DNA of 35,489 bases. Source: Glaciozyma antarctica PI12. Lineage: Eukaryota; Basidiomycota; Microbotryomycetes; Kriegeriales; Camptobasidiaceae. The stretch is from positions 43,825-79,313 of the forward strand of contig KZ627147.1 in assembly GCA_002917775.1 (NCBI GenBank), in the 5' to 3' direction. This document shows, one piece after another, positions 715-27,400 of the stretch. Each line of letters begins with the position of its first letter. Within the stretch, counting starts at the first letter, position 1. A program made the translations under genes and the position numbers. The notes beneath the pieces are model-generated. The model searched no databases. It was given only the letters and a program-made list of their open reading frames with translations, and was not told the origin of the DNA.

Positions 715-3159
715 ATGCCAACCTCAGCCGAAGCAGCACTCGCACGCCTGAATGTCGAGCTCCTACCAGGGACTGAGATCATGGAGGGTACGTTCCATCG
801 CAACGAGTGCGCAAAGCCGCAACTAACGCGCGTTCCCGCCGCAGACATGGGTGGCCTCCACTTTCAGCACGGTGGCAAGGCCGACGTCGTTCTCGTTCCT
901 CAGCCCAGCTCGTCTCCTCACGATCCGCTCAACTGGACCTTCACGTGGAAGATGATTGCTATTTACAACCAAGCCTGTGAGAGAGCTCCACTGTCTGGCA
1001 ATCTCTCGAAGCTGACCCTCCTCTCCGCTCAAGTCTTCTGCCTTGTGTCGGTCATGGCAGCTCTCAGTCTTTCGCCCATGACGCCCTACCTCATCGAGTC
1101 GTTCGGTGTCGATATCAACCGAGTTACGCTCTACGTAGGTCCACCGCCTCAGTTACTTGCGCCGTTTGCTACCCGTTTTGCTCTCGCAGACCGGTGTTTG
1201 CATCATCACGCTGTGCGTTCCTTTCACTCCCTTCCCAGAATAACGCAGCAACTGATGATTCGGTACCCACAGCGGCTACTCCAACTTCTGGATCGTCCCC
1301 GTCGCCAACGTCTTCGGCCGCCGCTTCGCCTCGCTCCTCTGCGCCGTCCTCTGCATGGTTTCTCTAGTGCGTCAATCCCTTCTCTGAGAGAAAGCAGCCC
1401 GAACTGAATCCACCCGTCTCAGATCTGGATGGCGGTCGCAAAGTCGGACGGCTCTTTCATGGGCGCTCGCGCACTCAACGGTATCGGAGCCGCAGCTAAC
1501 GAGTCCATCATGGTGTGTAGTTTTTCACAAGTCAGCCTACGCGACGCTGACGTTACGCACTGCAGGCCATCGTCGCTGCTGATATCTTCTTCCTCCACGA
1601 GCGCGGTACCTACATGGGCCTCTACTTTGGTGCGTGCCTCGCGACTTCCAAGTGGCTCCTTCGTTAACCTATCCCGCTACGCAGCGTGCTACTTCTCCGG
1701 TCTCTACCTCGGTCCCATCATCTCGGGCGAGATTGCCTCGAAGCTCGGGTTCGTTCCCTCGTTCCGCCCCCTCAAGCGACGTTCGCTCACGCAAAGACTT
1801 TCCGCAGCTGGCGCTGGTTCTTCTGGGTCTGCCTCATTCTCCAAGGTGTCAGCACCGTCGCTCTCGCCGTCGCCTTCCCCGAGACCCACTACGGCGCTCC
1901 CACGATCACTGCCGACGCAGCCTTTGTTGACGTCCTCAAGGCCGATGGCGAGGTCGAGCTCAAGGAAGATTTCGAAGCCGCCGGCTCGTCCAAGGACGCT
2001 CCCGCTGAAATCAGCCACGTCGGCCTCGGTCGACCTTCGAAGGGACAGTTCGCTCTCCTCCACCGCCCGGATCAGTCGCAGGTCAAGCGCATTTGGCAGA
2101 CGATCTACATGCCCTTCCTCGTCATCTTTAACCCCATCATCCTCTGGGCTTCGTGCGTTCTCGGTGGAACCGCCAACTCGATGGTGCGCACGTCTCCCGT
2201 CGTTTTGCACGGATTCAGAGCTGACGACCGTCTTCGCAGCTTGCCGCCAACATCAGCGAGAACATTGCTTTCGCTGGACCTCCTTACAACTTCACTCCCA
2301 GGTGCGTGCCTCGCTTCCTCCTTCTCATCAATCCTAACACCTCGTCGCAGCCAAGTCGGATTGACCAACCTCTCGCTCCTCATCGGTGGCTTCATCGGAC
2401 TTTTCACCGCTGGTACGTCCTCTCGCGCATAAGCTCTTTGCAAGTACACAGCTGACGTCGCTTTGCAGGCCCCTTCTCCGACTGGATCTCGGCGCGCGCG
2501 ACGAAGAAGAACCACAACATTCGCGAGCCTGAGATGTACGCTCCTCCCCTCCCTCCGCTCCACAGCTTCGCTAACCTACTTTCTGCAGGCGATTGGCAAG
2601 TCTCATTCCCTACGGAATCATCTACATCATCGGCATGGTCATCCTGTGCGTGTCCCTCTGCCGCGCGCGATTTCGACTCGAAGCTGACGATTTTGTTCGC
2701 AGTGGTGTTGGACTGAGGGAGGGCTGGCCCTGGCAAGTCGTTATCATCGTCGGATTCGGAGGAATCGGTCTCTCGACGGCTTCCCTCCCCACCATCGCCA
2801 TCACCTACGCCGTTGACTGCGTACGTCCTTCTCCCCGCGCCTTCCCTCGCAATCCTAACCCCACGCGCAGTACAAGCCCATGGCCGGCGAAATTCTCTGC
2901 ATCGCCACCGTCATCAAGAACACTTTCGGCTTCGGTACGTCCTCTACCTACGATCGACCGTACGACTCCTCCTGACGGTTCCTCCGCAGGAATGACCTAC
3001 TGGGTCGTCCCCCTCGCTCTCACCAAGGGCTTCATCAACCCCGTCATGATCCTTTTCGCTCTCACCACCTCCGGCCTTCTCGGTGGCATCGTCCTCTTCT
3101 TCTACGGCAAGGACCTTCGCAGGCTCACTAAGGAGTCGTCGCTCCACCGCTGGCATTAA
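715..3159 (+). CDS. MFS transporter, drug:H+ antiporter (DHA1-like), multi-exon
   Basis: A plasma-membrane secondary transporter of the major facilitator superfamily that moves a small organic compound against the proton gradient; the substrate is unknown. The ATG at 715 opens a short cytosolic N-terminus that carries the DPLNW motif typical of fungal DHA1 carriers just before the first helix. Hydrophobic segments follow across about ten exons: FFCLVSVMAALSLSPMTPYL, a TGVCIITLGYSNFWIVPVA segment followed by NVFGRR (the loop 2-3 signature position), the AANESIM...AADIFF region, AACYFSGLYLGPIISGEIAS, then a long charged central loop (about 1910-2090) and a second helical half ending LLGGIVLFFYGKDLRR. 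The stop is TAA at 3157-3159. Introns are 50-70 nt, for example after MVSL near 1370 and after NSM near 2183. It is followed by a flavin monooxygenase on the same strand, 495 nt downstream, so a role in uptake or export of the aromatic substrate is a reasonable inference. Exact exon edges are by eye. Confidence 0.88.
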
Positions 3160-3654
3160 GTTTCGCCTCGGATAGGAAGATAGGGAGCACGATAGGGCTT
3201 TTGTGTACGGATATAAAGGAATATGGTTTTTGAACCCAGTCTTTGCGAAAGTGAAAGGATTCGCGGACTCTGGAGAGAATCTCAGAACTTGCGCGCTGCG
3301 AGCTTTGCCTCCTCCACACCCTCTGCTTTCTCTGAGGATCTCTGAATTGCCTCTGCAACTGCTTCCATATCTGCAGCTGCGCCTGACGTTGCTTGCTACG
3401 GCTCCCCCGGCACCTCCCCACCTCCGAGGAGTCAGGCGTCTTCTGGGGTCTTGTGCATATGAGCCCAGGTGGGCGCATCGAGCGGAATATGCCCTCCGTA
3501 ACACGTGGAGCGGATACAAGTTCCCCGCGCGCTCGTTATCACCGTCTCCACCAGATTTGAGGTAGCCCACCATAGTCCCGCCCCTGTGCGCGTCGAGCGT
3601 TCTGGGATCGCAAGGCGGTCCATCGCTCACCTCTCCAGCATCACCAGCACCAGC
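3160..3654. other. Intergenic region between transporter and monooxygenase
   Basis: This 495-nt stretch should hold the transporter's 3' untranslated region and the promoter and leader of the monooxygenase. A 241-codon open frame on the minus strand (2944-3669) overlaps the transporter's last exons, has low-complexity composition and matches nothing I recognise, so I treat it as a shadow. No RNA gene or repeat is visible. Confidence 0.45.
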
Positions 3655-5872
3655 ATGAGTATCGATCAAGAGCTACCTACCCTCCATGAAGCACCCGTTG
3701 ATGTGTGCATCGTCGGCGCCGGACCTGTCGGAATGGTGAGTCTCTTCGCTCTCGCGTCGATGTCGAGCTGAGAGCCTCTCCAGATCCTCGCTTTGGATCT
3801 CCAGCACCGCAATAAGGATCTCAAGATCACTATTTATGAGCGCCAGCCTGCGCCTTACCCTCTTCCGCGAGCAGGTGCGCTCTCTCTGTCGTTCTGGCGG
3901 CGCGAGCTGACGCTCCTCACTAGTCTGCCTCGACCACGAATCGCTTCGTCTCCTCTACACGTTTGGACTGGGTCCACGAGTCGAGCCAATTATCCACCCC
4001 TGGCCGAACTTCACGTGGAGGGATGCGGAGAAGAAGAGTGCGTTCGCTCCTCCTCGCTCCTTCGACAGGAACTGACCTTGTGCGCAGTGATCGTTGATTT
4101 GGGATGGAAGGAGATGAGCATTAGTGGACATCACAACACTTCTGGATTCAGCCAGCCTCAGCTTGAGCGCCTGCTTGAAGCTGCGGTCGTTGAGCGTGGG
4201 ATCAAGATTGAGCGAGGGTGGTGTGCGTTGCGTTTCTTCTCTCCTGCCCTATACATCGGTAATCTCCATTATTCTAGCACTGCAAAGCGCCGAGAAAGGA
4301 GCCGACTCCGTCACCGCACACTTCAACAAGTGGACCGCCGCCGCCGGACCCGACTTCGCTTCTGCACGAACTCTCGAAGCCAAGTACCTGGTCGGCTGTG
4401 ACGGTGCCAACTCGGCCGTTCGCAAGATAACTGGCATTGGGATGGTCGACATGGGCTTCACGAGCGACTGGCTTGTGCGTCCTTCCCCCTCGCATCGCTC
4501 GAGACTTGGACTGACGAACGACCAGATCGTCGACATCATTCCCAACGACCCGAAGAAGCTTCCGAAGCAGATGACCGAGCATGGCCCTCACCAGCTTTGT
4601 GATCCAGAGAGGCCAACGACGATCGTACACGGCGGGCCAGGGCGCGAGCGAATCGAGTGAGTGGCTCTGGCTGAGCGAGAAGTTCGAAAGCTGAGAGTGC
4701 TCGCAGGTACATGCGCCTTCCTGGCGAGACGATTGAGGAGCTTCCGAAGAAGGAGAATGTCTGGCGCGTGATGAACAAGTGGGGTCTCACCGAGGTACGC
4801 ATGCTTTCCCTCCCCAATCTCGCACTTTTTGACACGCTGCTGCCCTGCAGGAGAACTGCGTGCTTGAACGAACTGCAGTCTACACTTTCCATGCTCGCTG
4901 GTGCGTCTTTTGCTGTTCGTCTCAACCGCCGCAGCTCATTGAACCACCTTCGCAGGACCGAATCTCTTCAATCCGGTCGCCTCTTCCTCGCCGGAGATGC
5001 GTACGTAGTCGTTCTTCCACTTTTTTTTAGTCGACAGCTATCGACTCACTCTCCCGCAGTGCTCATCTCATGCCGCCCTTCATCGGACAAGTACGTCTCG
5101 CTGCCTCGGCTTCTCTGAAGTATATTCTGACCTCGCTGTTCTCGCAGGGAATGAATTCTGGAATCCGAGACGCCGCTGCACTCGCCTGGAGGCTCGATGC
5201 CGTCCTGAAGGGCAAGTTCAAGCCCAGCGTATTCGACAGCTACTCGCCTGAGCGATTGGGACACATCGAGCAAGTCACCGTGCGTCACTTCCTTTCCCCT
5301 CCACGCTTCACTCGCTGAATTGGTGACTGTCACAGAGGCTCGCTGTCAAGCTCGGCAAAGCAATCTGCGTTACTAGCGCCGACGAAGCCGCAGTCATTCA
5401 CGCTCACTTGCGCTCGGGTACGTCCTTCTCCCTTCGCACCGAGCCCCTCACTAACTCGCTCACAGAGCCGCAACCCGTCATCCACTACCGTCTCGGAAGC
5501 CCAGGTCTTTTCATCGACTCCCAGCCCTCCGCAGGTCTGCTCTCGATGCAGCGCAAGATTCTCAACTCAGCCAGCAAACTCGTCTGGCTCGACACGATTG
5601 CCGAATCCCGCTGGACCCTCCTTAGCAGCCATGGATCGCCTCTCGATTCCCTCTCCTACACTTCCAAGTACTTGCTGGAGAAGATGGGAGGAACGGCGAT
5701 TGATTTGGAGGGAAGGGATGAGACGGGAGCGTACAAGGAGTGGTTTGAGGAGGCGTGCGATGGCGCGGAGGTGGTCCTCATTAGGCCGGATTTCTATGTC
5801 GCGTTTGGGTGCAAGATTGCGGATCTGGAGGAGACGTTTGGGGGGTTCGCGAAGGGGGTTGGGTTGGTTTAG
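3655..5872 (+). CDS. FAD-dependent aromatic-ring monooxygenase (phenol / 3-hydroxyphenylpropionate hydroxylase-like, MhpA type)
   Basis: A class A flavoprotein monooxygenase that would use NAD(P)H and O2 to add a hydroxyl group to a phenolic ring. The ATG at 3655 gives a 20-residue leader and then the dinucleotide-binding motif GAGPVG (about residues 21-26), followed by ITIYERQPAPYPLPRA. The second FAD/NAD(P)H signature, with DG, reads YLVGCDGANSAVRK (about 4382-4425). The third, GD motif reads GRLFLAGDA...HLMPPFIGQGMNSGIRDAAA, spread over three exons (about 4978-5180). A thioredoxin-like C-terminal region with ADFYVAFG-like wording (IRPDFYVAFG, about 5785) closes the protein; TAG is at 5870-5872. 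There are about ten short introns. The sequence resembles bacterial MhpA-type and fungal phenol hydroxylase-like enzymes. It neighbours an FAH-family enzyme and an extradiol dioxygenase, which fits a meta-cleavage pathway. The exact substrate cannot be read from sequence. Confidence 0.9.
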
Positions 5873-6161
5873 TGGGGCGTTTTATTTGCGAATTCAGGGT
5901 CATGTTGCAGGACTGTTTGTGTGCCTGCTGCAGAGGATTCCGACTTGGTGAGCGGTGGTAGAAAGTGGTCTGGCTCAACTTGAAGAGTGGTTGAAGAAGG
6001 AAGACAGATTCTTGGGAGGACGGCGGAGCGAGCAACCGAGCGGGCGAGCGACGTCCTTCCCTTCGCAACCCTCAAATCGCTCCCACTTGTACGTCTTCTC
6101 TCGCAGCTTAGGCACCGAAATAAAGAACAGGGCTGAACGACGCGATTCATATTCCAGACCT

Positions 6162-7486
6162 CTACTCAAACTTGACGATGTTGATGAGCGTACCTGCGTG
6201 AGAAGTGCATCGTCAGACCTGCTCGGCCTTGTAAGAACCGAAGCGAGCTTACCGCAATGAGGGGTAACCTCGACGCGCATATCGTCGCCGTCCTTGAGCA
6301 AGTTGTTGGAGAACCTGCGAGCTGAGCGTCAGCGAGAAGCCGGAGGTGGGAAGCGGAGGGACTCACCATCCGATTCCGCCGGGGGTGCCGGTCTACAAAG
6401 GGAGGTTAGCGAGGAAAAGGCTGAAAATGAACTGTTGACGCACCATGATAATCGTTCCCGCCTTGAGCGTCGTGTTTTGCGAGAGGAAGGAGACGAGCTT
6501 GGGGATGGAGAATATGAGGTCGCTGGCAGGGTCTCTCGTCAGTGAGTATCGAGAGAACGGAAGATAAAGGAACGTACGTCAGCTCAATATCCTGCACGAC
6601 TTTGCCGTTCTTGATTCCTCGAAGGCGGAGAACGCTGGGATCCGGAATGGCGCGACTCGAGACGAGGACGGGGCCGATGGGAGCCATCTTGTCGAATCCC
6701 TTGCCCTAGAACAAGCAGGGGTCAGCAAATCGTACAGCTCTGGGTCGGCTTCAACGCACGAGGCACCACTGGGACGTTGCAATCCTGCGAAAGATAGCTC
6801 AGCGAGGTCGACCGAGGGAGAAATGGGCGGCGAGCGTACTTGTCGGGTCCTCCTTGCCACTTGCGAGCAGACACGTCGTTTGAAGAGCAGTACCCAAGCA
6901 CGTAGCTCAATGCATCTTCTTCTGAGACGTTCCTGCAGGTCTTGCCAATTACAAGAGAGACCTCGCTTTCGAAATCCGCCTGTTCACGTCGGTCAGCAGC
7001 GCATCGCAGGTACAGAATGAGCGAGAGATCGTACCTGGTCGTTCTGCCAGTTCTTGTGCACGACAATGGAGTCGGGGAACGGGCCGGAGAGAGCGGTATC
7101 GGGCTTAAGGAAGAGGATGGGGACCGCAGGGATCGGAAGTCCGGCCTCAGCAGCGTGCTTCTTGTACTGCAGAGCGAGGTGAGCTTGGAGACTGCCAAAT
7201 CTCTGAAACGACGCACGTTGAGTCCGACACAGCGGATAGAGAACGTCTCGTCCTCCGCGACAGGGGAGAGAACCGTCTTGACGGTGAGCACTTTGCCAGT
7301 GAACTTCGCCTCCAAGTCCAAGAGGGAGCTCCCCGAGAGCTCGTTGACCTCGACCTTTTCTCCGGCAAACGTGGCGAGTCCGACGTCGAGCTCAGCGTCG
7401 ACTGGCTCACCGACGTGAACGGCGTCGTCTTCCACCGCGACGAAGCGGATGGCGCGGGACCAGAGAGGCGTGCAAGGGCTGGACAT
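6162..7486 (-). CDS. Fumarylacetoacetate hydrolase (FAH) family protein
   Basis: A metal-dependent C-C hydrolase, decarboxylase or tautomerase fold, as in FAHD1, HpcE and the ring-cleavage-product hydrolases and hydratases. The first exon runs from the ATG at 7486 and ends in CVGLN; the next begins YKKHAAEAGLPIP. The metal site is visible: ADFESEVSLVIGK supplies the E-x-E pair and SSNDVSARKWQ the aspartate. The family motifs SQWCLGKGFDKMAPIGP and TGTPGGIGW follow in later short exons. A final exon, spliced at about 6193 after TPHC, gives GTLINIVKFE and a TAG whose complement is at 6162-6164. The length of about 300 residues is normal for the family. There are eight or more introns. It lies tail-to-tail with the monooxygenase and head-to-head with the dioxygenase remnant, about 85-210 nt away, so a shared promoter is likely. 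In this setting the likely substrate is an open-chain ring-cleavage product (inference); acylpyruvase activity is the alternative. Confidence 0.9.
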
Positions 7487-7570
7487 GGTGCTGGAGCTGA
7501 ACGAGTTTGGTTGAGTGGTTGGAGTAGTGCAACGTCAACCCCTCGAAGCTCTTGGGCGTGTGCCCCGCCA

Positions 7571-8153
7571 GGAAAATTGGTGGGCGCGTTTCGGCGGAGA
7601 GGTCGGCGGAGAGACCTTCACCGACCACCAGTGCGTTCTTCCCCCGTTCCTCGTTTCGCGCATCGCCTCACTAACATCACTCTAGCACTTTCTTCTTCAT
7701 GATCGCGCCATCGCAACACATCCACCACTCGAGTTTCGAAGTCCACGATTTCGACACCCAGGTCCGTCCCACTCGTCTCTTCCTCGCTGATCCAGATGAT
7801 CGCTGATCCAGATGATCGGACACAAGTACCTCGAAGAGAAAGGCTACAAGCTCGAATGGGGTATCGGTAAGCTCTCTCTCTCCACTTCCTCGCAGCGCGT
7901 CCTCATCCTGCGCAGGACGCCACGTCCTTGGCTCCCAGATCTTCGACTACTGGCGCGACCCCGTCAGCGGTTTCGTACGCTCTTTTACTCCTTCCCACTC
8001 GCTGCCGAGGCTAACCTCTCTCGCGCGCAGATGATCGAGCATTACTGCGATGGAGATATCGTCAACAAGCATAATGAGATGAAGAGGTCTGCGGCGAGCG
8101 AAGAGGGGTTGGCGGTGTGGGGTCCTCAGCTCCCGGAGAGTTTCTTGCACTAG
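7571..8153 (+). CDS. Extradiol (catechol 2,3-/2,3-dihydroxybiphenyl-type) dioxygenase, C-terminal domain only; 5'-truncated
   Basis: Five small exons splice cleanly into the second vicinal-oxygen-chelate domain of a type I extradiol dioxygenase, an Fe(II) enzyme that opens catechols next to the two hydroxyls. The exons are about 7571-7630, 7686-7761, 7812-7866, 7915-7974 and 8031-8153. The joined text runs NWWARFGGEVGGETFTDHHT, then FFFMIAPSQHIHHSSFEVHD, then KYLEEKGYKLEWGIGRHVLG, then QIFDYWRDPVSGFMIEHYCD. The three metal ligands expected of the family are present: His in TDHH, His in HHSSFEV and Glu in MIEHY. The N-terminal domain (about 130 residues) is missing: upstream the frame meets a stop at 7512-7514 and then the FAH gene's first exon on the other strand. 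The first in-frame ATG (7700) would drop the first His ligand. It is therefore either a remnant or a gene with an unusual start. The family identity is firm; function is doubtful. Confidence 0.75.
7786..7817 (+). repeat. Perfect 2 x 16-bp tandem duplication spanning a splice acceptor
   Basis: The unit gctgatccagatgatc occurs twice back to back (7786-7801 and 7802-7817). Each copy holds a branch-point-like ctgat and a CAG acceptor. Use of the second acceptor (after 7811) keeps the dioxygenase frame. Use of the first adds 16 nt and shifts it. Confidence 0.9.
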
Positions 8154-8335
8154 ATTTGTACTGGGAATCACACAGCGTTAGTACGTGACTGGACTCCGAG
8201 AAAAGGAGGGAGCGAAGGGAGCGAGACACCAGCGAAGATACGAAGTCTTGCGAGATCCCAAATACACTATCTCTCTCTCAAAGCCCACCGCACACCCTCT
8301 CCCAGCGCATCCCAAAACAGCATAAATTACGTCCC

Positions 8336-11261
8336 CTACCCCACCTTGCTCTCATCCAACTCGCTCAAAATCAGCAACACCTTCGCAAACATATTCCCGA
8401 CTCCCCACTCGGTCGTCTGCTGCACCAACCTCGCTCCCGCCGTCAACAGCTCAATCAAATCCATCCTCCTACTAACGCCATCCACGAACCCCGGTAGCAG
8501 GATCTTGAACGCGAGTACCGATCCACCGGGAGAAGGAGGGAGGTGCTGCCATGCGAAATTGGCGCTGAGGTCGATAGAGGGAGAGGAAGGGGAGTAGGAG
8601 ATGTAGGGGGAGCAGGCGAGGTAGGATGCGAGAGTGAGGACGGCGTGAAAGATAGCGCGAGGGATATGGACGCCCGACTGTCCTAGTACTCTCGCGCTCG
8701 ACACCTGCTGCAGCACCTGTTGCTCTTCGTTAGCGGGCTTCGAGGGACGAGGGAGAAGGGGGGAAAGAACGCACCTGCGCGGCGTAGTACAACGCCTTCC
8801 CCGCCCCCTGCGTCCCACACCATTCCTGCAGCGCATCCCTCGCTTTCGCCGCCTGCACGACCCCGCTCTTCCCCACAAACCGATACAGCAACCCCACATC
8901 GACATACCCCTGCAAACAAAGGCTCTGTACGAGCGCCTCGGTGCACCCGACCTCGTTGTCGAAAGCGTCGAGCGATGAACAGACGCGGTGGATGATGGAG
9001 GAAGCTTCGGGGGGTGGGAGGACGCAGGTGAGTCGGAGAGGGGAGGCGAGGGTGCAGGCTGTTACGGTATTCCGGAAAGTTGAACGAGAGGCGAGGAGGT
9101 GATCGCCTAGCAGCACTGCGATTCGTCAATGAGGAACGCGGGGAGAGGGGGGAGGGACGAACGGAGTTGGGAGAGCCAGGCGGAGGCGGTTGGGGCGGAG
9201 AAGAGGGTGTCAGGACTGACCGTGTTGGGGTCGAAGGAAGAGACGAGCTCGGGGTGGACGGAGCCGGTTCGCATCATCGTTTCGTGCACGATTAGGGCTG
9301 CGGCGGTTCTGGAAGCGGCGTCAGTCGGCGAGTTCGCACAACAACCAGTCAGAAACGTACCGCTGATGAGATTCGTACTTCGCCCATGAGTGCCAGGCGA
9401 GCTCGAGATCTGGTGGCGAGAGCGTCTGGAGGTACGAGGACGACAGTGCAGGGAGCTTCGCCTGCATGTCGACCAGGCTGTTCTGCTGAGTCCACTGCGA
9501 AAATTCGAGTCATTAGTGTCGAGGGAGAAGGCCTGGGAAGCAGAACGCACGGCAACGATAGTCCCGTGGAACGCCTCGCTCGTTAGGTGATGAGCCGCGA
9601 CCTGCCAAAAAAGCCTCGTCAGCGCGCACATAATGACGAGGAGTAAGATGGAAGTACGCCCGACATGAAGCCGTAAGTCTGCCCGAGAACAGCGGTCTGA
9701 ATGATGGCCATCGTCTCGTCCGTTCCTCCTGCGAAGCGAGCATGCCACTGCGATTGAAGTCAGCTCCCAGAATCGCGCGCGCCAATAAGAAGAAAGAACG
9801 AACGCAGCGCATAACGACCTTGTGAAGTTGCTCGTAGATGACTCGACCGCGCGTGATAGCAGAATCTGCGTCGTTCATCAGAAGTCGTTCGAAAGCGCAG
9901 GCCGACGAGCGACTCACCAGTGCCAACGAAAACGGCGCCGACGCTGACCATCGATAGAAGTAGTAGAGGAGGAGTCTCGGAGCGACGGAAGGTCGGCGCA
10001 TGAATGAAGGGGAGGATGTGGTGGAATTTGCGGAAGAAGATGGCGACGCAGCGGTCGACGAAATCGAACGTCGGGCCAAGGACTTCAGCTGGGTCGAGCT
10101 GCTTCCATTCCTGCGTCGAAGAAATCGGCTCAGCTGACGAGGATGAGCAACGAACGAAACGTACCTCGACGACGTGAAGGTTCGAAGCCAACCTCGTCAC
10201 ATCGTTCGCTCCAACCGGCCACGACCTCGTTCCCTCCCTACTCGAATCCCACGTCAACACCCCCCTAACCGCCTGCACACATCTCTCCGACACATGCGCC
10301 AACAAAACATCGCTCCCATCCATCGACAACACCTGCGGCAGCGGTCTCGGACTCGGCGCCGCGCTACTGAGGTGGAAGAAGTCGAACCCGACGGCAGGGA
10401 TAGAGGTATGCCACTGCGAGGGATCCGAATTATCGAGCGTGGCTGCTAGCATCGTCTCGAACTGTAGCGGGTCGAGCCATGGATCCACTCCTGCAGTCGA
10501 ATAGCCTCCGCCATTGCTAGGCTGGAAGAAGGATCCGCCTCCGAAGAGGTCCCCCATGTTCCCTAGTAGTCCTCCTTCGTTCGTTGAGGCGAGGTGGGGG
10601 TCGTAAGTCGCGGGGGAGAAGGAGAAGGGGGACGTTTGTTGAGCGGCGTCGTCCTCCAAGCTGCTATGTACCGATCCCGCATTCTCCGTCGCCGAAGTCG
10701 AGCGTAAGAGGTCCGTGAGATCCGCCTCCGTATCGCGTTGCGGTCGTGTAGCCGGTGCAGAGGAGGGAGAACGATCCCTGCCTGCCAACCAGGTCGGGCA
10801 ACGAATCTCTCCGTTGACGTTCTTTTGCCGCTTGTCGTGTCGCTGGAGAGAGTCGAGTCGAGCGAAGGAGCGACCGCAGCGGGGGCAGAGGAAAGGGCGA
10901 ACGTCGTCGTCTGCAAGGAGTCGGAAGGTAACAACCCGGGGGTCAGCTTCCCAGCTCTCCTTCACCCGCACAAGAAGAGAAAGAGCGTACGCGTAGCGCT
11001 GTGCCGCTGAAGATGCTTTTGAAGAGTAAAGGTTGACTCGCACTGGCTGCACTTGAGGGTACGCTGCGTCGTCGCGGGCTGGGTCAGCGCCCAGTGCCCC
11101 ACAGCGACTACCCCGCGTTTCTCTGGAGGGCGACGGACGGGATTACTGGGCCCAGCAGCGGTTGCAGGATCCGTAGCAGCACGAGGCATCGGTGCCTGCT
11201 CGTCGTTTGAAGGCGTCGGTGTCCAAGGGGAGAACGAAGGGACGACCTTCAGCCGCTGCAA
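8336..11261 (-). CDS. C2H2 zinc-finger transcription factor with fungal-specific (Fungal_trans) domain
   Basis: A nuclear regulator, read from the ATG at 11261 to a TAG whose complement is at 8336-8338. The N-terminus holds two adjacent C2H2 fingers. Finger 1 is CSQCESTFTLQKHLQRHSAT followed by His; that last His codon is completed only after an intron (about 10993 to 10914). Finger 2 starts FLCPRCGRSFARLDSLQRH and has no normally spaced second His, so it looks degenerate or uses a distant Cys. A Gly/Ser/Pro-rich linker follows (about 10400-10750). After it, exons such as FDFVDRCVAIFFRKFHHILP, IHAPTFRRSE and the YKF-like helices of the Fungal_trans (PF04082-type) regulatory domain continue for about 500 residues with some eight introns. 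The C-terminus ends LLILSELDESKVG. It closes the aromatic gene cluster and converges on the dioxygenase remnant, so it is the best candidate pathway regulator (inference). The substrate or ligand is unknown. Confidence 0.85.
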
Positions 11262-11365: not shown

Positions 11366-12624
11366 CTAATGCCCATGTCCCACCACTCGACTCAACAAGC
11401 CAGGCGTAACCATCCCACCGACGACCAGCGCCATCCTCGACACCTTCCCCAATCCTCCCTCCTCCTCATTCTCCCTACTCATCACCCCCGTCGCCACGAA
11501 CAAGAAAGTTCCCCCGCTGAACACCAGCACGATCCCCGTCCACCAGCCCATCCCATCTCCGCCCGCGCCAACGAGCGAGAGGAGGAAGTAGGTGACTATC
11601 GCTCCGAGGGGTGCGGCGATTGAGAAGGCGAGGAGGGATTGTCGGGTAAAAGTGGGAGTGCAGGAGGAAGAGAGAAGGAGGGAGGAGAGTGCGAAAGCGG
11701 TCGGAGCTTTATGGAGCATGATGGCGAGGAAGATGAGGAGGTCCAACGAGGAGTGGGATTTCGCGCTGATAGATAGTGCGGAGGCCCCGAGGGAGATCCC
11801 GTCTGCCAGCGAGTGGACGAGGAGTCCTACGACTGTCGAGACGGCGTTTCCGGAATGCGCGTGAGGGAGGGGAAGAGGGGGTGTGGCGGCGTAGTGAGGC
11901 TTCGTGCTCTCCCAGTCGTAGGTCGAGGGGACGTGGTGTAGGCTCGAGGGACGTGAATTGGGGGGAGTGGAAGAGGGGGAGGAGGAGGGGGAGAGTGGTT
12001 CGAGCTCTGAGAGGCCGGTGCCGGTGCGGGAGAAGGAGGGGCGATGTCGAGAGTGCGAGTGTTCGGCGTGCGGGGTTATCGTGTCGATGATGTACCTGCG
12101 TGTGGATAGAGAGGTCAGCTCTGTGAAGCTGAGGCGTAGTTCGTCGTGTGTCCAGCCGTACGCTCGCCAGAGCACCAAGCACGAAGGCAATAACTCGAGA
12201 GCGTGAGCTTGCGACAGCGGCGCCAGCGACCCTCCAGCGCTTCCATAGCGCTTCCATAGCCTAGCAAGGCATCCTCTGTATCTTCAGAAGCTCCTACGGC
12301 CATCTCCAGCCCTCCCCTTCCCCTTAATCCCCGCATCCGTAAACCAGGGAGGTGGTGCGGTACTCACATCAGCAAAAAGCCCCCCAACAGCGCCGCTCCA
12401 ACCCACCCAGACGCCTCCTCCCCCTCCCCCGTAGCCTCATAAACCGCCTCCACCCCCTCGGGAATCACAACCATCAGCGACGCGCCGATGAGGAGTCCAC
12501 GTCCGTAGGTAGAGAGAGTCTCGATACGCTGTGGGGAGAGAGGGAGGAGGAGCGGGGCGAAGGAGGCGAGGAGGGTGGCGAAGAGGATGATGAAGGATAG
12601 CAGGAGTAGCCTGGCCAGTCCCAT
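11366..12624 (-). CDS. ZIP-family zinc/iron transporter, ZIP9 (SLC39A9/Atx2)-like
   Basis: A membrane carrier that brings Zn2+ or Mn2+ into the cytosol, in ZIP9/Atx2 relatives from the Golgi or secretory lumen. Two exons, 12368-12624 and 11366-12095, join at LLM/YIID and give 328 residues. An N-terminal hydrophobic stretch (ARLLLLSFIILFATLLASFA) is followed by a second helix with IGASLMVVIPEGVEA. A cytosolic variable loop of about 90 residues is rich in His, Ser and Pro (AEHSHSRH near its start). Then come the two ZIP signature helices, HSLADGISLGASAL and HKAPTAFALSSLL, which carry the His/Asp metal ligands. Three more hydrophobic segments end in LLSRVVGHGH. The length and the early EGVEA motif match the ZIP9 branch. 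The single intron is 272 nt, longer than is usual here. The start is head-to-head with the first BTB copy, across a GA repeat and the assembly gap. Confidence 0.9.
12236..12257 (+). repeat. 2 x 11-bp tandem duplication inside the ZIP intron
   Basis: The unit agcgcttccat occurs twice in direct succession (12236-12246 and 12247-12257), with the next three bases agc repeating the unit start. It lies within the 272-nt intron of the ZIP gene, so it does not affect the protein. It is small and probably a replication-slippage event. Confidence 0.8.
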
Positions 12625-13015
12625 CTTGAAGAGGCGGAGGCGGTGGAGAGAGAGAGAGAGGTGGTTGGTGGTGAGTGTNNNNNNNNNNNNNNNNNNNNNN
12701 NNNNNNNNNNNNNNNNNNNNNNNNNNNNNNNNNNNNNNNNNNNNNNNNNNNNNNNNNNNNNNNNNNNNNNNNNNNNNNNNNNNNNNNNNNNNNNNNNNNN
12801 NNNNNNNNNNNNNNNNNNNNNNNNNNNNNNNNNNNNNNNNNNNNNNNNNNNNNNNNNNNNNNNGAGAGAGAGAGAGAGGGTTGTGGGTTCGAGGTATTGG
12901 GCCTGAGAGAGAGAGAAGAACCGCAGAAACTAGAAAGCGGAGAGAATCAGGTTGTCGTCCTCCCTCGGCCTGGTTACGACTCGACTGCTTCCTTTTTCCC
13001 TCTCGTTCGCCCCGA
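12625..13015. other. Shared ZIP/BTB promoter region with assembly gap in a GA microsatellite
   Basis: Between two head-to-head genes. It contains a run of GA repeats at about 12648-12660, 185 N at 12679-12863, more GA repeats immediately after the gap (12864-12878) and another short run at 12906-12915. Repeats of the same dinucleotide on both gap edges suggest the missing piece is a longer GA microsatellite that the assembler could not close. No gene is visible in the sequenced part. Confidence 0.8.
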
Positions 13016-21569: not shown

Positions 21570-23860
21570 AGTCAGTCCTAGTCCCTCCCCTCCTCCCCCC
21601 AGGCGTACGAGCTAATCCAGCTATACACAGTGAGCATACCTACGCCTGAGCAGGGCGTTCGCGTCGTTCTCGGATCTCAATGGGGTGACGAAGGTTCGTT
21701 CCTCCCTTTCCGCCTCCCCACCCCGCTCCCCCGCTCCTCCCCCTCCTCCACCGTGCTCTCCAGCCACTCCAGAACGACTCTGAGGACGAGGAAGAGCCGG
21801 CGCTAACCCCATCTCGTTTTGGGTGACGAACAGGCAAAGGCAAGCTCGTCGACATCCTCGCCGCTGAGGTCGACATCTGCGCCCGCTGCGCCGGTGGAAA
21901 CAATGCTGGACACACGATCGTCGCTAATATCGAGGGCGTCAGGACCAAGTTTGACTTCCACCTGCTCCCCAGTGGTGAGTTTTAGGCTTTTTCGGTTCGA
22001 GGGCGGGTTGGGGAAGGGAGGTGGAGATGGTGCTGGAGGGAGGGCCAGGGAGGAGGTGGGTGTTGTTGGGTGGACGGAGGGAGCTGAAGTGCTGGTGGTG
22101 TGGAGGAGGACGGGGAGAGTGGAGAGGAAGACGACGAGCGTGGCTGGTCCTCTCCCTCTCCTCGAGATGCCGGGAGGGACGCAGGACTGAGCCAAGGCAG
22201 CGGTGGGGCTTGCCTGCGGGCTTTTGTGTGACACCAGTGCGCTGGGATTCTGCGGCTTCCTGGTCGGCTCGAGACCGCCTCAGCTGCTCACGACAGCTGG
22301 TTGTAGAAGCGTCAGCGCAGCACAGCTTTGCTGCCCTCACAGGGCAGCAGGGGATGCTCGGCTCGATCGCTTCCATTGTCATTGTGGCTGCCAGCAGCGT
22401 TTGAAGCTCGCTGCTTCGTCGTCTTCGCAAGCAGCGAACTGCAGTAGGCATGGTCGCCAGGTTGGAGGGTAGCCATGGGTTGCTGCTTTTCCACCGGCAC
22501 TACTCGAACTGCTGCCCGGGCGAAGAGCTCGTGCGAAGCTTCGCCAGTTTCAAACACGCAGAGGAATCACGAGCTAACTTCCTCCCTAGGCCTTGTCAAC
22601 CCCGAGTGCACGGCGTTCATCGGTTCCGGAGTCGTCGTCCACGTTCCTGCGTTCTTTGAGGAGCTCGACACGCTCGAGAAGAAGGGTGAGCTTGTTCTTT
22701 GCTCTCCCTGCCTGCTTCCACGCTGATGAGACGACTCCTAGGCCTCAACTGCGACGGCCGTCTCTTCATCTCGGACCGCGCGCACCTCGTCTTCGACTTT
22801 CACCAGATCGTCGATGGCCTCAAGGAGGTCGAGCTTGGCGGATCGTCGATCGGAACGACCAAGAAGGGAATCGGACCAGCGTACTCGTCCAAGGCGTCCC
22901 GCAGTGGACTCCGCGTTCACCACCTCTTTGACGAGGAGCTCTTCGCGACCAAGTTCAGGAGTCTCGTTGAGGGCCGCTTCAAGCGCTACGGCAACTTCGA
23001 GTGCGTTCTTCTCTCGAGCGAACGAGGAAGAAAGGAGCTGATGCGGTCGTGTGGCAGGTACGACACTGAAGGCGAGATCGTTCGCTACAAGGCTCTCGCG
23101 GCCCGCCTCAAGCCTCACGTCGTCGATGGACCTACCTTCCTCCACAAGGCCATGGCAGCGAACAAGCGCATCCTCGTCGAGGGCGCCAACGCTCTCATGC
23201 TCGACCTCGACTTTGGAACGTACCCCTACGTCACCTCGTCGCCTACTGGAATCTCTGCAGTCTGCACTGGACTGGGATTGCCTCCTAAGGCGATCGGTCA
23301 GGTCGTTGGAGTCGTGAAAGCCTACACTACGCGCGTAGGATCGGGACCTTTCCCTACCGAGCAGCTTAACGTGCGTTCCTTTCTCTTTCGCCTCTTCCGC
23401 GCGGTAGCTGACGGCTCAATCACAACAGTCCGTCGGTGTTCACCTCCAGGAAGTCGGAGCCGAATGGGGCGTCACGACCGGTCGTCGTCGTCGCTGCGGC
23501 TGGCTCGACCTCGTCGTCCTCAAGTACTCGAACCTTATCAACGGCTACACGGCTCTCAACCTCACCAAGCTCGACATTCTCGACGCTCTCCCCGTGCTCA
23601 AGATCGCCGTCGCGTACCACCTCGACGGCAAGCCTCTCGAGGCCTTCTTTCCCGCCGACCTCGAGACGCTCGCCAAGGTCGAGGTGCAGTACGTTGAGAT
23701 GCCTGGATGGGAGACGAGTATCGAGAAGGTGGAGAAGTACGAGGACCTCCCTGAGAACTGCAGGAAGTACGTCGAGTTCATCGAGGAGTTTATTGGGGTC
23801 AAGGTCGGGTGGATCGGAGTCGGACCGGCGAGGGAGTCGATGATTACCAAGGCGCTATAG
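21570..23860 (+). CDS. ADE12: Adenylosuccinate synthetase (AMP biosynthesis)
   Basis: The cytosolic enzyme that joins IMP and aspartate with GTP to make adenylosuccinate, the first committed step to AMP. The P-loop reads [14 protein letters not shown], joined over an intron (21694-21833). Other family signatures are [31 protein letters not shown] (aspartate/GTP region), [18 protein letters not shown] and [14 protein letters not shown], followed by [20 protein letters not shown]. The C-terminus ends [15 protein letters not shown] at 23858-23860. The start is unusual. No ATG precedes the P-loop exon in frame, but if the A at 21570 is joined to TGAGCATACC at 21631 by removing a 60-nt GTCAGT...CTAAT...ACACAG intron, the reading is [15 protein letters not shown], which fits the family. 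The next intron, 21975-22589, is 615 nt, about ten times the local norm. Other introns are 50-70 nt. Confidence 0.93.
21975..22589 (+). other. Unusually long (615-nt) ADE12 intron with strong hairpins
   Basis: It is bounded by GTGAGT and a GCTAAC...CTAG acceptor that join AGT-G to GC-CTT in the family-conserved SGLVNPE. Its interior is G-rich at the 5' end and then carries hairpin-forming sequence at about 22315-22352: gcagca...tgctgc, followed at once by ctgccct/cac/agggcag. It may host a small RNA or just be a long intron; no C/D or H/ACA boxes could be confirmed by eye. Confidence 0.55.
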
Positions 23861-24483
23861 GATAGATGGAGGGGGAGATGAAAACAAGACGAGGTATTCA
23901 TATCACTTGAGCAGCGAGCATCGCAGCCGACAGAGAGCAAAGGCGCCGAGTCGCCCGCACGCCTCGAGATTTGTGCGCGAAGTCCTTCCGCTGCCCTCTG
24001 CCCACCAACTCGTCCTCGACACGACTACGAAGAAGGCGTACGCCCCATCTTACCTTCCTACACTCCTCCACTCTCGCTCGACTCTCGGCAAGAGCCCAGA
24101 GGTCTCTTTCTCCCAACTCGATTCAGTGCAAACGCGTTTTCGCGTTCGTCCGGCAGTTCTCCTCCAGTGCTAGGGCTACGACGAAGCCTGTTGTTGGTGC
24201 AGATTGTTTGAAGAGCAGGTGAGTCGGGATGGTGCTGCTGGAAGAGCTGGGGAGGGTGGGGCGCTGGGGAGGGTGGGATGGTGAAGAGGAGGAGGAGGAA
24301 TGGTGCAGGTCCAGGGCTACGCCGCCAGCTCACGGGGGAGTACGTCGAGACTTTCAGGACTATTAGGGAGTGAGATCGGTAGCCTGGAGCTGGCTCAGCA
24401 GCTACAACCTCGCCACAGAAGCTCAAGCTGACTCTTGCTCCTCCTCTCCTCGCAGACCATCCACCGCCTCACCTCAGCCCACT
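23861..24483. other. Intergenic region between ADE12 and RRP6
   Basis: A 623-nt region on the same strand as both neighbours. It should hold the ADE12 3' end and the RRP6 promoter and leader. The sequence near 24218 (AGCAGGTGAGTCGG) and AG sites just before 24456 would allow a leader intron, but this is only a possibility. Open frames here are short and not recognisable. No repeat or RNA gene is seen. Confidence 0.4.
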
Positions 24484-27400
24484 ATGACTTCCGCCATGGC
24501 TACCGAGCTTCCCGACCTCCTCGAATCTCTCCAAAGCGCTCTCCTGGCCCCTACTACCGCCGCCGCCGCCCTCCCCGACGCCTCGGACCTCGTCTTTGAG
24601 CGCACCCTCTCCCGCCCTCTCGCCCGCAAACTGGACGCCGAATCGACTCGTATCCTCGCGCTCGTTAGCAGTGTGCTCCAGTGGAGCGAAGGGGAGCAGG
24701 GGGGCAAGGAGCTGGACGGGGAGATGATCCGCGAAGGAGTGTATGGAGACGTCGTTGAGCGCGTCGAGGTTCTCCTCGAGCGTGCAGACGATTCGATCGA
24801 GAAGCACCTCGGGATAGGAAAGCACAAGGCCGGCGTCGGAGCCATCGGCGCCAAACCCGTCGTCGAGGCGCCCAAGAACGACAAAGGTGCTCTCCCTTCG
24901 CACCTCCTCCATGCGCCCGACCTCCCTCGCCCTCAACGCCTCTTCTGCCCCCGCCTCATCCTCCCTCGACCTTCCCTCGATGCCGGATCTCCCCCTCCTC
25001 TTTGGAAGCCAGTCCTCACGACCAAGCCTCACGCCCTGTCGACGGACTCCTGGCTCGCAGTAGAGCTCTTCACTCCCCCCTCCCCCGGCTCTCTCGCCCC
25101 CACCCCTCCGGCCCGAACTCGCTACGCACACCCTTACGCCGTCGAGCTCGCTGCTCTCCAGCCGCCTGCGACATATTTTGAGGCCCCTGAGCAGCCGGCT
25201 GCGGTCAGCAAGACGAGCTTTGCGGACACGCCGTTCGAGTGGGTTGGAGATGTCGCGGCGTTGCAGAGGATGGTGTTAGGGAGATTAGTGAAGTGCGTGA
25301 AGGAGGGATTGACGGATCTTGCGGTGGATTTGGAGCATCATGATTTGAGGAGCTGGAGCGGGGTGACTTGCTTGATTCAGGTGAGTTGACGTGTGCGATG
25401 GGAGGAAGCTGGAGCTGATGCACCTTCGTTTCCAGCTGAGTACGAGGAGGAAGGACTACGTGATCGACGCTCTCGATCCTGCAGTGCGAGAGGCTCTCGA
25501 GGGCCTCAACGAGTTCTTCGCGAACCCCGAGTGGATCAAGGTGAGCCCGTTCGGTGGAGCTCTCGAAAACTTCCGCTTGCTCATGCGATCATCTGGCAGG
25601 TGTTCCACGGCGCCGCATCGGATGTCATCTGGCTTCAACGCGACTTTGGCCTCTACCTCGTCGGACTTTTCGACACCTACCACGCGACGCACGTTCTCGG
25701 TTCGTTCGTCCCTCTCCCGTGTACGCGCTATCCTAACCGTCTTGCATTCAGGATTCGCCGGGCACAGTCTCGTGTCCCTGCTCACGATGTACACCGACTT
25801 TCAGGCCGACAAGCGGTACCAGCTCGCCGACTGGCGAATCCGGTACGTTCTCGATTCTCAATTCCGCAAGACCGTCTCGCTGACATCCGCACAGCCCCGT
25901 CCCCGAGGAGATGCTCCACTACGCTCGCTCCGATACGCACTTCCTCCTCGCGATCTACGACCACCTCCGTCTCGCTCTCCACGCCCGCGCCGCCAACCCT
26001 CTTCCCGCCATCGAAGCTCTCCCCACCCCAGTCGACACCGACGCCATGGCAGTCGACGAGCCCGTCCCCGCAACGGCGCACGACCTCCTCTCGACCGTCT
26101 TCACTCGCTCGACCGAAACGGCCTCGTCAGTCTTTGAGATCGCTCCTTACGATTTCGAGACGGGCCTCGGCGACGGAGGCTGGCGCGCTCTGCTCAACAA
26201 GTGGCGCCACGGGCGCGACTACGATACGGCAGTCGCAGTACCTACTCTCCCGATCAAGACGGGCTGGGGACCCGGCGAACTTCGTCTTGAAGTCCTTCGC
26301 GCGGTGCATGCATGGCGTGAGAAGCTCGCGAGGGAGGAGGACGAGGGAGTTCGCTGGGTCCTCAGTAACGGAGGCGTCTGGGCCGTCGTGGAGAAGTTGC
26401 CGACGAACGCGGTCGAGGTGATGGGCGCGTTGGGGACCGTCAGGGGAGCGGCGGGCGAGTTTGTGAGGGCGAGGAAGGAGGATTTGGCCCGCGTGGTGAG
26501 GGGAGGCGTTGGAGGGGGTTACGGTGGGCGGGGGGAAGGAGGGGGAGGAGGGGGAGGAAGAAAAAGAGGGTCGAGGTGGTGGGAGTGAGGGGGGAGGCGG
26601 CGGTCGAGCCTGCTGTTGCGCCCATGGCGGGGCTGTGGGATGCTCCGCTCGTCGCAGCGTCGGTGGTGGAGTCGGTCGAGGCGGCTGCGACGAAGGCGAA
26701 GGGATTCGGATTCGCGGCGGTACGAGCTGCGACATCATCGTTCTTTGGTCGAGGACCGGTCGCGAAGAAGGAGGAGCCGGTCGTCGCCGTCAAGCCTGCA
26801 TCGTCGATCGTCGCGGCGAGGAGCTCGTTCTTCGGAGGAGGGTCGAAGCCCAAGGCCCAGGTCGTCGAGCAGCCGGTCGCTTCGACGAGCGAGTCAAAGG
26901 CACAGGCTGTCGCGCGAATTCACGCGTCGCTTGTTCTTGGAGGTGGATTGGCCAACGCGCGTTCTCCCTTGCTCTCCCCCGTGGCTCCAGCTAATCTTAT
27001 CGCACAGTCTCTTCGCTCCCACGCCGTCCCGGCTCCTGTCCCCATCGTCAAGGAAGCTCCCGCCGCTCCCGCCGCCCCGCCCGCGAACCTCGCCGCCGCC
27101 TCAATGGACCACTCCTACGTCCCCCTCTCCGGTCGCATGCCCAAACCGGCCGACACTCTCACCACTTCCTCCGCCCCCGCCCCCGCCCGCGCTCCCAAGC
27201 CCTCCGACGTGATCGTCGTCTCCTCGCTCGCCGACAAGCCCAAAAAGCGCAAGTCGACGGACCAGGGAGCGCAGGAGTCGCCGAAGAAGCGCAAGGGGAA
27301 GGGGAAGGAGAAGGTCGCCAAGCAGGCGCAGCCGGTGCTGCAGCCGTTCGATTATGATGCGCATGAGCAGTATTCTCGACTCGCATCCCGAGGCGAAGAA

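Follow-up and report, generated by a model that had tools for sequence, protein, structure and literature searches.

The question raised by this locus is whether a basidiomycete yeast carries a bacterial-type gene set for opening aromatic rings and, if so, whether that set is complete; in fungi, aromatic ring opening is generally held to follow the ortho route. The locus lies in a stretch of 35,489 nucleotides (hereafter the window) of Glaciozyma antarctica PI12, at positions 43825-79313 of contig KZ627147.1 (contig C2) in a genome of 19.98 Mb and 18 contigs. There, an initial annotation had placed five neighboring genes for an MFS carrier, a flavin monooxygenase, an FAH-family enzyme, an extradiol dioxygenase domain and a transcription factor, and had proposed a meta-cleavage pathway. 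On balance, we read the locus as a subtelomeric catabolic cluster that is the counterpart of a bacterial monooxygenase-VOC-FAH set, most likely acting on resorcinol-type rings. Its dioxygenase gene is truncated, and the pathway is probably either broken after hydroxylation or completed by an unrelated enzyme. We call the cluster subtelomeric because CCCTAA telomere repeats open contig C2, about 44 kb from the window. The size, G+C content and intron style of the genome also look to us like those of a red yeast.

The five genes were spliced by hand on GT-AG introns, and Pfam and NCBIfam models were then run on the products (Table 1). Introns of the modeled genes measure 47-80 nt and are GT-AG throughout. 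The five neighboring genes and their family names were borne out by the spliced models and, for the four complete genes, by Pfam. In alignments with PDB entries 1gtt and 8gsr, the FAH protein keeps the E-x-E, D and H..E positions, which we take to be the metal-ligand E-x-E...D set and the catalytic H..E dyad. The flavin adenine dinucleotide (FAD) monooxygenase carries a GxGxxG motif at position 21 and a GD motif at 309, and the F motif is absent. For the regulator, besides the Fungal_trans domain, one C2H2 model scores marginally above its cut-off and two score below.

The dioxygenase gene required a different route to identification. Its product has no Pfam match at E 0.01, and its NCBIfam matches (HsaC, HpaD, BphC and catechol 2,3-dioxygenase models) are weak and far below cut-off. 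By tblastn, 108 out of 72,556 plasmid records gave a match, which in 95 records spans 80% or more of the query. The best match (E 4e-32) lies far beyond chance, with 51% identity across 98% of the query. A scan of viral contigs gave one match (41%, E 4e-7). When genome contigs were scanned, at least 577 stretches proved to encode a relative, and the best 80 of these constitute the bacterial loci analyzed below. The product is 46-51% identical to the C-termini of bacterial VOC proteins. In the aligned bacterial homologues, the metal-binding residues, which we presume to follow the ligand scheme of BphC, lie in an R[LV]GH motif for the first ligand, an HxxFEV-type motif for the second and an EH motif for the third. 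By this alignment the yeast model retains the equivalents of the ligand-2 His and the ligand-3 Glu and lacks the N-terminal RLGH-type ligand-1 His. Homology is therefore to the metal-binding C-terminal module of a VOC enzyme, and not to a complete protein with all three ligands (two His and one Glu). The VOC homology of the annotated domain is real, but the domain is just a C-terminal fragment without the first iron-ligand His.

How much of the gene is missing can be judged from the bacterial loci. The VOC frames, counted from the first ATG, GTG or TTG, are 309-497 amino acids long in all 80, and the match to the yeast remnant begins at a median residue of 234. On the yeast side, the match starts at residue 27 of the remnant frame (the GETFTDHH codons, position 7608) in 72 of the 80 comparisons and at residue 25 or 29 in five; in the remaining three, all Pseudomonas rows, it extends to residues 1-4 with few identities. 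Because of these three comparisons, we place the point where VOC homology fades, or the break, somewhere within 7530-7608. Upstream there is no in-frame ATG (the first ATG is at 7699), and an in-frame TGA stands at 7512, 26 bp from the FAH start codon at 7486. That start codon is separated from position 7608 by 121 bp, and the FAH gene is intact. As judged from these alignments, the dioxygenase gene is without its 5' two thirds in this assembly. A working meta-cleavage set is not supported, because the dioxygenase is without roughly its N-terminal two thirds and the first metal-ligand His, and the region 3655-8153, proposed earlier for expression assays, holds no complete ring-cleavage gene.

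What remains of the gene is in good order. Its codon adaptation index (CAI) is 0.717 (GC content at third codon positions, 0.77), with intact genes ranging over 0.448-0.854 (62 slices), and it exceeds the 97.5% value of 0.500 for random synonymous codons. A short tandem duplication at the second intron provides two possible acceptors 16 bp apart, one in frame and one shifting the frame. As the remnant shows no damage to its frame, codon bias or splice sites, either the loss seems to be recent or the piece is still in use.

The missing part was sought in the same genome. With the remnant as query, only four exon pieces of this locus matched in the 20 Mb; with a full-length bacterial VOC protein as query, only this locus matched, even at E up to 5. 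An N-terminal VOC profile built from five bacterial rows had no match in the six frames of the window or in 12 other stretches of the genome. A nested gene with 5' dioxygenase exons upstream of FAH is unlikely: the models leave room of just 495 bp (3160-3654) and some 290 bp (5873-6161) between them, and the N-terminal profile found nothing in either interval, although short exons could escape it. At E 1e-3 the monooxygenase matched only itself in its own genome, with weak partial matches at two other loci. Further FAD_binding_3 proteins are encoded elsewhere; in nine stretches of 9-10 kb holding such loci, neither the cluster FAH, the MFS carrier nor the dioxygenase piece had a match at E 1e-3.

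We then examined which genes accompany the VOC relatives in bacteria. Among the 80 loci, an FAH relative lies in the flanks of 74 and a monooxygenase relative in those of 61, all 61 carrying both. In 73 loci, FAH is no more than 1.5 kb away and shares the strand. The monooxygenase is that close in 33 loci and no more than 4 kb away in 57, of which 56 have it on the same strand. The yeast MFS carrier as query matches a single locus. Six loci (L024, L027, L058, L067, L068 and L083), some with short flanks, showed neither FAH nor monooxygenase in the flanks examined; the VOC enzyme may occur in other settings too, among them Microcystis. Individual arrangements vary. VOC, FAH and monooxygenase genes are consecutive on a plasmid of Rhodococcus qingshengii J1-2. 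A plasmid of Burkholderia cenocepacia CMCC(B)23006 packs six genes into 6 kb, namely FAH, VOC, one of hypothetical function, an FCD regulator, an MFS carrier and the monooxygenase. Another B. cenocepacia plasmid has its VOC gene about 6 kb from an FAH-monooxygenase-MFS group, and a Paraburkholderia plasmid has VOC-FAH without this monooxygenase alongside. An FAH-VOC-monooxygenase arrangement also occurs in other Burkholderiales. The gene order of the window shows the same adjacency of the three families. The earlier description of a candidate aromatic catabolism cluster is accordingly reasonable in that the locus resembles a bacterial set of hydroxylase, extradiol dioxygenase and C-C hydrolase, but its dioxygenase is incomplete.

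As a separate observation, the VOC frame on the CMCC(B)23006 plasmid is annotated as just 161 amino acids (L010 1450-1935); by eye, N-terminal-like sequence lies upstream in another frame. The yeast remnant and this frame make two shortened dioxygenases in sets of this kind.

The phylogeny of the monooxygenase bears on the substrate. The yeast enzyme falls in a 14-row clade with support of 100/99, and MhpA and the actinobacterial enzymes fall outside it. Six rows of this clade are linked to VOC and FAH genes, five (one read by eye) to maleylacetate reductase and an intradiol dioxygenase, and one to intradiol and citryl-CoA lyase neighbors; a Paracoccus row has no ring-cleavage gene in the stretch examined and has 3-oxoadipate-pathway genes. 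The clade thus mixes VOC+FAH-linked and intradiol-linked enzymes rather than uniting set-linked enzymes only, and the yeast branch within it is long. By this tree, the closest company of the yeast monooxygenase is proteobacterial, with either VOC and FAH or intradiol and maleylacetate genes as neighbors. Of 300 Burkholderiales genomes drawn, two gave a match at E 1e-75. From hydroxyquinol, the lower route usually runs through an intradiol dioxygenase and maleylacetate reductase. Because clade relatives adjoin genes for these two enzymes, the tree suggests a resorcinol-type substrate, that is, a ring with meta-placed hydroxyls, as the most likely one.

A route can be proposed on these grounds. 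The MFS carrier would import the compound, and the FAD monooxygenase, as family and tree suggest, would use NADPH and O2 to hydroxylate it beside a ring hydroxyl, which would yield a catechol of the hydroxyquinol or pyrogallol type. The ring would then be opened by a type I extradiol dioxygenase, the FAH enzyme would, by its family, hydrolyze the resulting acylpyruvate or beta-diketone acid, and the C2H2/Fungal_trans protein may control the set. Since the 5' two thirds of the dioxygenase gene are gone and the searches turned up no further copy, the pathway probably either ends at hydroxylation or is finished by an unrelated enzyme. With the ring-opening step apparently missing, the hydroxylated product should therefore stall or autoxidize.

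Several points weigh against this reading. E. coli MhpA as query also finds a relative in 61 of the 80 loci, so the adjacency concerns a broad monooxygenase family and not the yeast enzyme specifically. As many as 64 of the loci come from Actinomycetota, so the sample does not cover all bacteria, and the FAH proteins of these loci are mostly 26-34% identical to the yeast FAH. Among eight whole genomes holding such VOC loci, one contains a match to the yeast monooxygenase at E 1e-60. Orthology of the whole yeast and bacterial sets is, on such comparisons, not proven. The tree holds 31 of 77 candidate rows and was rooted by choice on E. coli MhpA; since the yeast branch is long (1.95) and its composition odd, the exact place of the enzyme is unsure and just the large clade is to be trusted. 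As for the missing exons, a control profile of the C-terminal part, built from bacterial rows alone, recovered two remnant exon frames (E 3e-13 and 8e-9) and missed a third, short exon (E 0.26 with filters off), which makes the negative N-terminal search weak for short exons. Finally, the truncation could be an assembly error. Taken together, these comparisons partly confirm the initial annotation and partly support its interpretation; we read the locus as a bacterial-type gene set in fungal, intron-rich form whose key enzyme is truncated.

A more specific assignment deserves to be weighed. The cluster might serve catabolism of the flavonoid A ring, with the monooxygenase as a C8-hydroxylase of the FdeE/IfcA/RgF8H type, the dioxygenase as a former FdeC/IfcB-type enzyme and FAH splitting the ring-opened product; hydroxylated flavonoids would then build up in this strain. 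We regard this as unlikely, though with some arguments in its favor. In Rhodotorula glutinis, RgF8H hydroxylates flavanones and flavones at C8, an activity induced by flavonoids only, among the compounds tried, and its authors propose seeking an fde-like gene arrangement in the yeast genome as future work (PMC9422121). The same species converts chrysin via norwogonin to a pyranone that has lost the A ring, according to a review (PMC8232110), and FdeE/FdeC and IfcA/IfcB are each made up of an FAD monooxygenase and a glyoxalase-type partner (PMC11069340). Similar naringenin intermediates occur in Penicillium rubens, for which the authors found no syntenic cluster (PMC10755750). In the genome studied here, the finding that the monooxygenase matches nothing but itself at E 1e-3 and the remnant as the sole VOC relative found also speak for this assignment. 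The monooxygenase further shows the RgF8H-like pattern of GxGxxG and GD with no F motif, although the first two are common in the class and thus weak evidence.

Against it stand three points. FdeD is described as a Rieske protein (PMC8552027), and we therefore dropped FAH as its counterpart. The residues R224, W254 and K369 reported for RgF8H (PMC11303751) correspond to E, L and V at equal numbers in the yeast enzyme, where the numbering may differ; orthology with RgF8H is not supported at equal numbering. The other FAD_binding_3 proteins of the genome also count against it. A fuller version, in which red-yeast catabolism of the flavonoid A ring is encoded at this locus, with carrier, hydroxylase, VOC enzyme, FAH and regulator, and in which loss of the dioxygenase 5' part turned a degrader into a mere C8-hydroxylator, appears to us improbable. 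If it held, strains that do open the ring, R. glutinis for example, would with their full-length orthologues supply some of the first eukaryotic extradiol enzymes known to open flavonoid rings.

The truncation itself might be an artefact of the assembly or of the strain, the dioxygenase being intact in nature. The intact frame and codon bias of the remnant fit such an explanation, and so do the gaps in the assembly, namely a run of N at 12679-12863 and one of about 10.5 kb upstream of the window. None, however, lies near 7500-7610; the intact FAH gene begins very close to the break, and the N-terminal part was not found elsewhere, either with the full-length VOC query or with the N-terminal profile (weak for short exons). 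We therefore think an artefact distinctly improbable.

The mhp-type pathway for 3-hydroxyphenylpropionate or phenol, on which the initial annotation was modeled, appears very unlikely. An NCBIfam subfamily named after MhpA (NF004829) does include the yeast monooxygenase (435 bits, cut-off 390), but E. coli MhpA passes it as well (411 bits), so the subfamily name is uninformative. The MhpA equivalog model NF004827 gives 179 bits for the yeast enzyme, far below the cut-off of 966, and 1288 bits for E. coli MhpA. E. coli MhpB is unrelated to the VOC piece, and MhpA falls outside the supported clade that holds the yeast enzyme. Between E. coli MhpB, MhpC or MhpD and the four window enzyme and carrier proteins, no similarity better than E 0.1 was found, and across the 80 bacterial loci MhpB matched none, MhpC 12, MhpD 4 and MhpF 3. 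Family models, the tree and the lack of MhpB, MhpC or MhpD relatives among the four compared proteins led us to abandon this pathway.

Very little probability attaches to the remnant being a working single-module VOC protein of about 99 amino acids, starting at the ATG at 7699, two copies of which would pair and so restore a metal site, either as a new minimal enzyme or to bind a metabolite. In its favor, a VOC site consists of two modules, and the remnant retains the His and Glu ligands along with its frame, splicing and codon bias. Plain loss of the 5' part accounts for the same facts, however, and the duplication at the splice acceptor hints at decay.

Table 1. Features of the cluster, with positions in the window
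Feature	Position	Strand	Support
MFS carrier, 538 aa, 16 exons	715..3159	+	introns GT-AG, 49-60 nt; PF07690 (MFS_1), E 2e-33
Group A FAD monooxygenase, 527 aa, 13 exons	3655..5872	+	PF01494 (FAD_binding_3), E 9e-57; NF004829, 435 bits
FAH-family hydrolase, 297 aa, 9 exons	6162..7486	-	PF01557 (FAA_hydrolase), E 2e-56, 191 bits
Type I (VOC) extradiol dioxygenase, C-terminal remnant, 112 aa, 5 exon pieces	7608..8153	+	tblastn and alignment with bacterial homologues
16-bp perfect tandem duplication at the 3' splice site of the remnant's second intron	7784..7815	+	read by eye against the model
C2H2 zinc-finger and fungal-specific transcription factor, 775 aa, 10 exons	8336..11189	-	PF04082, E 5.5e-12; zf-C2H2_4, 2e-6

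Outside the cluster, a ZIP zinc transporter frame (PF02535) adjoins it at 11366-12283 on the minus strand, and the shorter run of N lies beyond. Further downstream, frames at 22690-23694 and 24367-26585 on the plus strand match adenylosuccinate synthetase as well as PMC2NT and HRDC domains of the sort seen in exosome-type exonucleases. The longer run of N (about 10.5 kb), immediately upstream of the window, is bordered by an inverted repeat (247 bp aligned, 80% identical) with arms at 28-274 of the window and on contig C2 left of the gap (stretch L007 9153-9369); it may mark the ends of an element or be a feature of the assembly.

Returning to the counterpart of the bacterial set, the locus offers candidate genes for ring openings seen in Rhodotorula cultures, which the parts of the literature we examined do not assign to genes. 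From the truncation we predict that such strains should stop at the hydroxylated compound. A stop at that stage would matter for the production of hydroxyflavonoids and for growth tests based on the phenol/phenylpropionate model. Our literature search, which left most subscription journals outside its coverage, returned no title or opening of an abstract describing this yeast cluster.

Several known systems can be set beside the locus. In the E. coli mhp pathway the monooxygenase is distantly related (28% identity), but MhpB, MhpC and MhpD are without similarity to the window proteins compared. For the degradation of 2,4-dinitrotoluene, DntD is a VOC enzyme and DntG an FAH protein. That pathway, with meta cleavage of 2,4,5-trihydroxytoluene, employs DntB, DntD and DntG as monooxygenase, trihydroxytoluene oxygenase and bifunctional isomerase/hydrolase in that order (PMC10602510), and is a precedent for the step order proposed for the yeast; it differs in its nitro-aromatic substrate and initial multi-component dioxygenase, and the comparison is one of described enzyme roles. 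In the fde (Herbaspirillum) and ifc (Variovorax) systems, an FAD monooxygenase likewise precedes a glyoxalase-type ring-cleaving enzyme (PMC11069340), and R. glutinis, with RgF8H, is a red yeast performing the same hydroxylation and ring-opening chemistry (PMC9422121, PMC8232110); as far as these sources go, no FAH step is named for fde/ifc, and the RgF8H marker residues mismatch at the same numbers. Unlike the bacterial monooxygenase-VOC-FAH set, the yeast locus is interrupted by introns and divergently arranged, its regulator is of a fungal type and its dioxygenase is truncated; the two share the same three enzyme families, to which the Burkholderia copy adds an MFS carrier and a regulator.

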